From an uncultured Sphingomonadaceae bacterium (GTDB lineage: Bacteria > Pseudomonadota > Alphaproteobacteria > Sphingomonadales > Sphingomonadaceae), in assembly GCA_947493215.1 (NCBI GenBank), contig CANLQE010000002.1, positions 248,001 through 312,000 on the forward strand: DNA of 64,000 nucleotides. The letters are read 5' to 3'. Of the stretch, positions 49,642 to 50,757 are shown piece by piece. How positions within the stretch are numbered: the stretch's first letter is position 1; the number at the start of each line of letters is the position of its first letter. Below the pieces are notes generated by a model. That model was not told the origin of the DNA and ran no database searches. It saw only the letters and a program-made list of their open reading frames with translations. Made by a program: the position numbers and the translations under genes.

Positions 49642-50757
49642 ATGGCACCGCCACACGCGAAATCCGTAATCACGCGCAGAGCGCTTCTCTTGTCGATGGG
49701 CGCCGCATCTCTGACAGCGTGCCAAACGACCCGTCTTCTGCCCATGCACGCAAAACGACCGGGAGTACCGGTACAATTGTCACCGGCCTATTTTGATCGC
49801 TCGGTCGTTGGGTTGCGTCCCGGCCGGCTTGGCGGGTTCAGGCTTGCTACGGAAAAGTTGGCCGAAAAACTTGTTGTCCATAATTATGGCCATGGCGGTG
49901 ATGGCTATACCTTATCCTGGCCATGTGCTAGGTGGGCGGCGGATCAAATTTCCGCTCAGCAGCCAGACTCCGTCGGCATTATTGGCGCAGGTGTAAGCGG
50001 ATTGACCACTGCCTGGCTATTGGCGCGGCGCGGCATCAAAGTAACAATCTACGCTGATAAATTTTCTCCTGACACGACTTCCAATATAGCCGGCGCTATT
50101 ATCCTGACCGGTCCAAATTATCGATCGGGAGAGAATGCCAATATGGGTCCATCCGACGACGCGATTAATGCTGATGCGCTGGCAGGATTTACACCGTTTT
50201 TAGCCGAGCAAAGATACGGCGTGTACTGGATCGATCATATCCAGATGCGGCCATTGTGGCAAGACAGCCAATCGCCCCAAGAGACATTTCTGGGGCGCAG
50301 AGTCACCGACAAATATCGCACAATCATGGTGGACCCCAATCTTTATCTCGCTGCGTTGATGCAAGATTTGTCGGAAATGGGCGTAAAATTCTGGACGAAG
50401 AAATTTACAACGCTCGGAGGCTTGGCCAGATTGCCTCATCCCGCTCTTGTGAATTGCTCCGGACTGGGAGCTGGTCTTCTGTTCGGCGACGAGAATATGT
50501 TCCCCATTCGCGGGCAGCTGACACTGCTGAAGCCACAGCCTGAGATCGATTATAGCTATATCAGCCGCCAGCCCGGCGGGGTGCTCTACATGTTTCCCAG
50601 GCGCGGGAATATCGTGTTGGGAGGCACCCATCAGCGAGGAAATGATCAATTGCTATCTGAGCCAGCAGAAGTTGAACGACAATTGCGCGGGCATGGTGAG
50701 TTGATGGCGAAGTTGAGAGGCGTTCCGAGGATGGATCCGGGCGAGATAAAAAGCTGA
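49642..50757 (+). CDS. Tat-exported D-amino-acid-oxidase-like flavoprotein with circularly permuted order
   Basis: The 371-residue precursor has a twin-arginine-like signal (ITRRALLLSMG, R12-R13) with a Cys in ASLTAC (C27). The following order is unusual. Residues 56-100 hold GLRPGRLGGFRL and VVHNYGHGGDGYTLSWPCA, which in D-amino-acid oxidases form the C-terminal end of the protein. The FAD-binding VGIIGAGVSGL comes after that, at 111-121, and the protein ends soon after GGTHQRGNDQ, the point where DAO proteins enter the GLRP segment. R62 would match the substrate-binding Arg of DAO. It probably oxidises an amino acid or amine in the periplasm. The start codon lacks a strong Shine-Dalgarno; the frame reaches a TTG at 49618. 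Confidence 0.7.
   Translation: MAPPHAKSVITRRALLLSMGAASLTACQTTRLLPMHAKRPGVPVQLSPAYFDRSVVGLRPGRLGGFRLATEKLAEKLVVHNYGHGGDGYTLSWPCARWAADQISAQQPDSVGIIGAGVSGLTTAWLLARRGIKVTIYADKFSPDTTSNIAGAIILTGPNYRSGENANMGPSDDAINADALAGFTPFLAEQRYGVYWIDHIQMRPLWQDSQSPQETFLGRRVTDKYRTIMVDPNLYLAALMQDLSEMGVKFWTKKFTTLGGLARLPHPALVNCSGLGAGLLFGDENMFPIRGQLTLLKPQPEIDYSYISRQPGGVLYMFPRRGNIVLGGTHQRGNDQLLSEPAEVERQLRGHGELMAKLRGVPRMDPGEIKS

Follow-up and report, generated by a model that had tools for sequence, protein, structure and literature searches.

Is a bacterial D-amino acid oxidase (DAAO) still a DAAO when the block that closes the canonical protein stands at its front? The question is raised by a gene on the plus strand (49642..50757) of the window, by which we mean the whole 64,000-nucleotide stretch of Sphingomonadaceae DNA analysed here. 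According to the sections of PMC9844085 available to us, bacterial DAAOs are recognized by the signatures GxRPxR and YGHGGxG, and GxGxxG is required at the N-terminus. The gene encodes 371 amino acids followed by a stop codon. Its product matches the Pfam DAO family (PF01266) with 112 bits against a cut-off of 27.9, and its motifs start at residues 57 (GLRP), 80 (HNYGHGG), 115 (GAGVSG), and 327 (GGTHQRG). We consider it probable that the product is a circularly permuted DAO-type flavoprotein, exported by the Tat pathway and tethered by a lipid, that oxidizes D-amino acids or related amino acids in the periplasm. With a GC content of 0.54 as against 0.53 for the window, the permuted gene looks native, and its genome contains no further match of this kind. 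By reading, the upstream neighbour in the window is a divergent thiolase-like ORF and the downstream neighbour is an ORF on the minus strand; no operon context was seen on reading the ORF list of the window. Promoter and terminator scans at the gene gave results near chance, and an Rfam scan of the window returned no match.

The closing block of DAO precedes the FAD-binding domain

A phmmer search against all PDB chains returned D-aspartate and D-amino acid oxidases as the first matches, with their pieces in swapped order. In human D-aspartate oxidase (6rkf; whole-sequence E 7.2e-26), residues 110-155 and 235-348 of the query were aligned with chain positions 14-61 and 155-263, and residues 52-104 with positions 280-335. 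Residues 53-103 were aligned with positions 322-372 of the Rasamsonia DAAO (7ct4), with an i-Evalue of 2.5e-6 for that stretch alone, and residues 111-337 with positions 3-249 of human DAO (2du8). We refer to residues 52-104 (49795..49953), the closing stretch of canonical DAO as located by 6rkf and 7ct4, as block A, and to residues 111-337 (49972..50652), the match to 2du8 comprising the FAD and substrate domains with which canonical DAO opens, as block B; these and all features below are on the plus strand. Block A contains GLRPGR (residues 57-62; 49810..49827), aligned to the GLRP of 6rkf and including the carboxylate-binding Arg59, and HNYGHGG (residues 80-86; 49879..49899), part of the bacterial DAAO signature YGHGGxG given in the available text of PMC9844085. 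A short linker (residues 105-109; 49954..49968), situated between a helix (88-104) and a strand (110-114) of the AlphaFold2 (AF2) model described below, would bridge what were the C-terminus and the N-terminus before the permutation. The FAD-binding fingerprint GAGVSG (residues 115-120; 49984..50001) follows, and the best Pfam DAO stretch begins at residue 111.

When the two blocks were exchanged in silico, residues 5-321 of the reordered protein matched positions 3-327 of human DAO (2du8) in a single stretch. Upon reordering, the scores went from 73.0 to 74.3 bits for 2du8, from 80.0 to 83.7 bits for 7ct4, and from 94.1 to 94.0 bits for 6rkf, which was still matched in two stretches. The Pfam DAO profile, also still in two stretches, gave 117.9 bits for the reordered copy as against 112 for the native protein (+5.9), and 107.9, 108.4, and 104.0 bits for three control rotations, two of which reach profile position 352 too, both of them likewise putting block A after block B. 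Because HMMER sums separate stretches into one score, the evidence lies in the swapped order and in the continuity of the match to human DAO, not in the score. A family profile built from a 13-row alignment (A1) also matched DAO chains in swapped order, the match being split into two pieces in 16 of the 17 DAO and D-aspartate oxidase sequences. Judged from these sequence comparisons, the block order is real and not due to chance. The initial annotation had read the locus in this way, with the DAO closing block first and GxGxxG after it, and the swapped phmmer matches, the reordered alignment, and the homologues described below all agree with it; the GAGVSG motif it named is present, one residue further along than the 114-119 it gave.

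The predicted fold and the cut point

We modelled the protein with AF2 from a 48-row alignment of permuted relatives and obtained a mean pLDDT of 86.8 and a pTM of 0.84. Both blocks are mostly above 90, and confidence is low for residues 1-10 and 21-40 (the signal and the linker after it), for residues around 201-210, and for the end from about residue 361. The leading elements of the model are strands at 51-62, 67-73, and 76-82 and a helix at 88-104; strand 110-114 lies directly before the FAD fingerprint, and a helix at 341-355 (50662..50706), after which comes the new C-terminus, closes the fold. In a Foldseek search, DAOs and D-aspartate oxidases occupied the first 33 places (E 2.9e-15 to 1.0e-12; identity 21-25%), counting 4qfc and 4qfd (four of the 33 rows), which we take to be DAO. 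The TM-scores by query length for these 33 matches, 0.48-0.59, are in the range to be expected when a permutant is compared by an order-dependent aligner such as Foldseek, which does not capture the placement of block A. We would expect the same DAO fold and active site to form in the permuted protein.

The initial annotation had let the protein end at GGTHQRGNDQ. It continues for 35 residues beyond that point, through the predicted helix 341-355, and the cut point is between this helix and the GLRP strand, one helix later than had been supposed. We propose that the old C-terminal block, comprising the GLRPxR strand, HNYGHGG, and the last helix, now comes first and would lead through about five residues to the FAD-binding strand, while the new ends would have been opened between the GLRP strand and the helix that follows GGTxxRG.

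The permuted order is widespread among bacteria

To our knowledge, natural circular permutants of well-studied enzyme families are uncommon. A scan of named genome contigs with the permuted query found at least 584 relatives, of which the best 80 were examined. All 80 are permuted, and they come from seven named phyla: 53 from Pseudomonadota, 16 from Acidobacteriota, five from Gemmatimonadota, two from Bacteroidota, and one each from Vulcanimicrobiota, Zixiibacteriota, and Verrucomicrobiota, with one more having no phylum assigned. This list is biased, because it was ranked by a permuted query. We also used an order-blind profile of block A alone, made from 23 permuted and nine canonical proteins, in surveys in which a portion of each genome's first-look candidates was scored. 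At E 1e-7, the profile matched 20 of 398 Pseudomonadota genomes, and all 20 proteins are permuted; within the order Sphingomonadales it matched 37 of 246 genomes, and the 30 of the 37 loci that were retrieved are all permuted, one of them (L204, with a variant motif) having been recognized by eye. The permuted order is thus the only one found in the order-blind survey of the 398 genomes and not a curiosity. Within the family of the window, Sphingomonadaceae, 14 of 59 genomes have a permuted locus, out of 25 with any match, the other 11 being weak (best E 5e-5 or worse) with the order not called. Among the loci classified in Alphaproteobacteria, 14 of 289 genomes have a permuted locus and one has a canonical locus (L115).

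The canonical query L137 gave 21 matches in the same 398 Pseudomonadota genomes at E 1e-8, 14 permuted and seven others; six of these seven are canonical-order flavoproteins without YGHGGxG, two having AGHGGNG. Canonical order within Pseudomonadota was seen in L115 and in a Vibrio plasmid copy (L175), and the plasmid matches of L137 listed comprise 37 Burkholderia and nine more Vibrio records. In the rows shown, L115 matches Burkholderia and Vibrio plasmid records from the middle to the end in one piece, as expected of canonical order. Both orders occur in Actinomycetota, permuted in Nonomuraea (L131) and canonical in Streptomyces, Streptantibioticus, Nocardia, Tsukamurella, and Mycobacterium. 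Overall, the permuted form was seen in eight phyla. On a Mesorhizobium onobrychidis plasmid (L139:1804-2867), a permuted gene is annotated as two adjoining FAD-dependent oxidoreductases and is apparently a broken copy. One weak match (L117) contains one stop.

An assembly or sequencing rearrangement in the window genome could in principle have produced the swapped order. The order is shared by the two closest relatives, which come from other records (L021 at 86%, L022 at 80%), by the best 80 relatives, and by the 20 order-blind proteins; with the homologues agreeing on the order, we ruled out a sequencing artefact and give a rearrangement a negligible chance. The initial annotation had called for a survey of homologues, which returned the same order in the best 80 of at least 584 relatives and in 20 of 20 order-blind matches, and had surmised that permuted relatives may exist unremarked. 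Within the open PMC literature, outside which subscription journals mostly lie, this was borne out, as we found no description of a permuted DAO there for what is a widespread bacterial lineage; the available portions of PMC9844085, PMC4699246, and PMC12502724 report none.

One branch separates the two orders

For phylogenetic analysis, each of the two blocks was aligned on its own, which kept the block order from influencing the tree. The tree contains 131 of 144 rows, after removal of 12 second loci of genes already included and of L053, which contains X; 128 of the 131 rows differ, at least one repeat having been kept (L142 and L113 are one gene). The canonical sample consists of nine bacterial sequences. 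One branch parts the 122 permuted from the nine canonical rows with an SH-aLRT support of 100, and none of 500 shuffles does as well. Leaving out four long-branch rows gives a support of 100, and using only block B gives 99. A single old permutation is the simplest reading of this tree, which does not prove it. We envisage a single, ancient circular permutation of a DAO-type gene, presumably by tandem duplication and subsequent loss of the outer ends.

Two separate fusions, or an independent assembly of the blocks, would do without a circular permutation, and would be consistent with our seeing no intermediate that has a copy of block A at each end, each ORF listed having one HNYGHGG-type motif. 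We regard this course of events as very improbable, because one branch separates the orders whether the tree is built from both blocks or from block B only, and because HNYGHGG and GxGxxG start 35 residues apart in 118 of 135 permuted sequences, a count in which some loci occur twice, and we retain a single circular permutation. The fusion of an extra C-terminal block before a complete DAO was ruled out by the single HNYGHGG-type motif per listed ORF. L194, a 704-codon open frame with two GxGxxG motifs, was rejected as a tandem intermediate, its upstream part looking like in-frame GC-rich noise.

Rooted on the canonical rows, the tree sets a group of six (L131, L132, L133, L149, L151, and L114; support 68) against a clade of 116 rows (support 97). 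Our script scored 113 rows of the large clade as Tat-like. The exceptions are L047, L107, and L153; the first two begin at the border of the available DNA or close to it, and L153 does not. In the small group, one of six was scored Tat-like (L151). Since a signal-less permuted group lies outside the Tat clade, the permutation probably came first and export later. Given the false positives of the script (L151 and one canonical row), this sequence of events is a lead and not a result. The permuted DAO-like lineage offers a testable case of a permutation preceding a change of cell compartment.

Conservation of the active site

In the available text of PMC9844085, the Arg-Pro pair of GxRPxR is described as binding the substrate carboxylate. 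Arg59 and the residues from Tyr82 to Gly86 are kept in all 122 permuted and all nine canonical rows, and YGHGGxG is found without exception in the 122 permuted rows (YGHGGDG, residues 82-88, in the window protein). Tyr316 (50587..50589), the counterpart of DAO Tyr228 by residue count in the phmmer alignment, corresponds to Tyr in 94 of the 122 permuted and seven of the nine canonical rows. With Arg59 and Tyr316, the protein would most likely oxidize periplasmic D-amino acids or related amino acids. The remaining 28 permuted rows have no Tyr228 counterpart, and a CLRPFR subfamily has neither this residue nor GGT, which makes a single substrate for all members unlikely.

The missing Tyr228 counterparts could instead point to a flavoenzyme of the same fold with a substrate other than D-amino acids, such as imino acids, N-methyl amino acids, amines, or a peptidoglycan fragment. 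The identity of only 21-25% to the DAO structures among the first 33 Foldseek matches would be consistent with such a substrate, as would the caution in the accessible part of PMC9844085 that the DAAO signatures occur in some glycine oxidases too. For the window protein, we find this alternative doubtful, because Arg59 and YGHGGxG are invariant in the 122 rows and Tyr316 is present, and we prefer oxidation of D-amino acids or related amino acids.

The permuted rows are marked by Tyr304 (98%) and Tyr137 (96%); Tyr304 is found in none of the nine canonical rows and Tyr137 in one. The window protein has Pro94 (49921-49923) where 98% of the permuted rows have Gly, and Thr156 (50107-50109) where 90% have Pro, and the substrate preference may differ in the window clade. 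The motif LSWP is common to the window protein, L021, and L022.

Relation to known families

The eukaryotic DAOs and D-aspartate oxidases (human, pig, Rasamsonia, Cryptococcus) are the best PDB matches in both fold and sequence. They share with the window protein the homologous blocks, GxGxxG, the Arg of GLRPxR, the Tyr228 counterpart, and an HNYGHGG-type block, but at 21-25% identity and with the block order swapped. Eukaryotic matches begin at chain position 3 (2du8) or 14 (6rkf), which leaves too little sequence ahead of the fingerprint for a signal. The bacterial canonical sample, consisting of the five actinomycete genera named above, Vibrio plasmid copies, and L115, resembles the permuted proteins in GxRPxR (eight of nine; GLRAFR in Vibrio L175) and YGHGGxG (nine of nine). 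Unlike the permuted proteins, all nine have the fingerprint first and YGHGG last, and they lie across the branch with a support of 100. Glycine oxidase ThiO and D-amino acid dehydrogenase, which presumably share Pfam PF01266, show a weak match to the window protein at the Rossmann fingerprint; it scores 51.4 bits against the ThiO model (NCBIfam TIGR02352; cut-off 250.8) and 32.1 bits against the D-amino acid dehydrogenase model (NF001933; cut-off 383), far below both cut-offs.

The window protein has GxGxxG, GxRPxR, YGHGGxG, and the active-site Tyr of DAAOs, and also the twin arginine, hydrophobic stretch, and lipobox Cys of Tat lipoproteins. However, 114 residues, including the canonical closing block, precede GAGVSG, and GxRPxR and YGHGGxG are found at residues 57-88 of 371, whereas they are C-terminal in the nine canonical rows. 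The protein thus seems equipped to function as a DAO. Because it lacks the order that defines canonical DAAO, we file the protein as belonging to a circularly permuted sister lineage of DAAO, not as a DAAO.

A predicted export signal and lipid anchor

Residues 1-26 (49642..49719) form a putative Tat signal peptide with the twin arginine R12-R13, and the lipobox L24-T25-A26-C27 (49711..49722) predicts lipidation at Cys27; residues 12-27 read RRALLLSMGAASLTAC. The twin arginine is invariant in the 13-row alignment A1 and nearly so in the 48-row alignment A3, and the two closest relatives, L021 and L022, also have the twin arginine, the hydrophobic stretch, and the lipobox. A lenient script, which matches patterns and is not a trained predictor, found a Tat-like signal in 79 of the best 80 of at least 584 relatives and a Tat-like signal with a lipobox in 61 of them. 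The sole relative without a Tat-like score (L047) has its gene at a contig edge, and of the 18 that lack the lipobox pattern, some show a near match on reading. As a gauge of false positives, one of nine canonical rows was scored Tat-like. The twin-arginine signal noticed in the initial annotation is therefore present in the protein as R12-R13 and, by the script, in nearly all of these relatives.

By these patterns, most family members look like Tat lipoproteins. The lipobox Cys27 within the signal makes a Tat lipoprotein likelier than a soluble periplasmic protein, and the likely product is a lipoprotein exported in a folded state, whether it resides in the inner or the outer membrane. Folded export via Tat suits a flavoprotein: the signal would export the folded, FAD-loaded protein, and the lipobox Cys would tether it to the membrane. 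From its signal and active site we infer a membrane-tethered, periplasm-facing enzyme that would oxidize D-amino acids or related compounds, a kind of periplasmic D-amino acid enzyme for which we found no paper in the open PMC literature. D-amino acid oxidase is listed among the proteins released by Asaia bogorensis in a table within the available portion of PMC12502724.

A more far-reaching scenario, which we advance as speculation and consider improbable as a whole, would join these observations. The permuted form would have largely replaced canonical DAO on Pseudomonadota chromosomes; through the permutation, the N-terminus would have shifted away from the buried FAD strand to the edge of the substrate-binding sheet, where a Tat signal and lipid anchor were later added; the active site, so anchored, would face the membrane; and the enzyme would serve as a tethered scavenger or editor of wall-derived D-amino acids feeding the respiratory chain.

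Gene neighbours and the electron acceptor

We propose that the electrons would pass to O2 or, in some members, to a c-type cytochrome. The same permuted Tat lipoprotein could instead be a dehydrogenase that delivers electrons to a periplasmic c-type cytochrome or quinone and not to O2, a role that membrane tethering would suit. A small cytochrome c gene (by Pfam) lies directly after the permuted gene on a Kozakia baliensis plasmid (L140:1797-3457), and in eight of the 80 loci (L035, L037, L065, L068, L077, L079, L086, and L087) a secreted-looking protein with a CVACHQ-like (CxxCH-type) heme motif is encoded at most four genes downstream, the L037 copy of which gave no Pfam or NCBIfam match. 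However, no cytochrome-type neighbour of the window gene was seen by reading among the ORFs listed. Moreover, a peroxiredoxin, which suits the formation of peroxide, adjoins the permuted gene at +1 on the opposite strand in four of the 80 loci (L065, L068, L086, and L087; the L086 copy is Pfam Redoxin), and the remaining loci have neither type of neighbour in the clusters found. A dehydrogenase is thus a tentative possibility, and we keep O2 as the proposed acceptor, with a c-type cytochrome in some members.

A thiamine pyrophosphate (TPP)-dependent enzyme is encoded directly downstream of the signal-less permuted gene in Nonomuraea (L131, 2881-5631) and in two rhizobial loci (L132, 1434-5660; L133, 1321-5648), which also have a berberine-bridge-type FAD oxidase upstream. 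For the TPP enzymes of L131 and L133, indolepyruvate/phenylpyruvate decarboxylase models give the highest scores, which stay below the cut-offs of these models. A keto-acid enzyme adjoining a likely producer of 2-keto acids supports amino-acid oxidation in the signal-less group. The three loci look like a pathway from D-amino acids to aldehydes.

In 12 of the 80 loci, all sphingomonad-type (L034, L048, L059, L063, L074, L078, L082, L083, L089, L091, L093, and L097), an HslU-like ORF on the same strand follows the permuted gene at a distance of 37-68 bp, and in several of these loci an HslV-like ORF is found just upstream of the permuted gene. NCBIfam confirms HslU in L074 and HslV in L075. This arrangement would place the gene of a predicted export lipoprotein inside a protease operon. 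In the window genome, hslU is on a contig other than that of the permuted gene.
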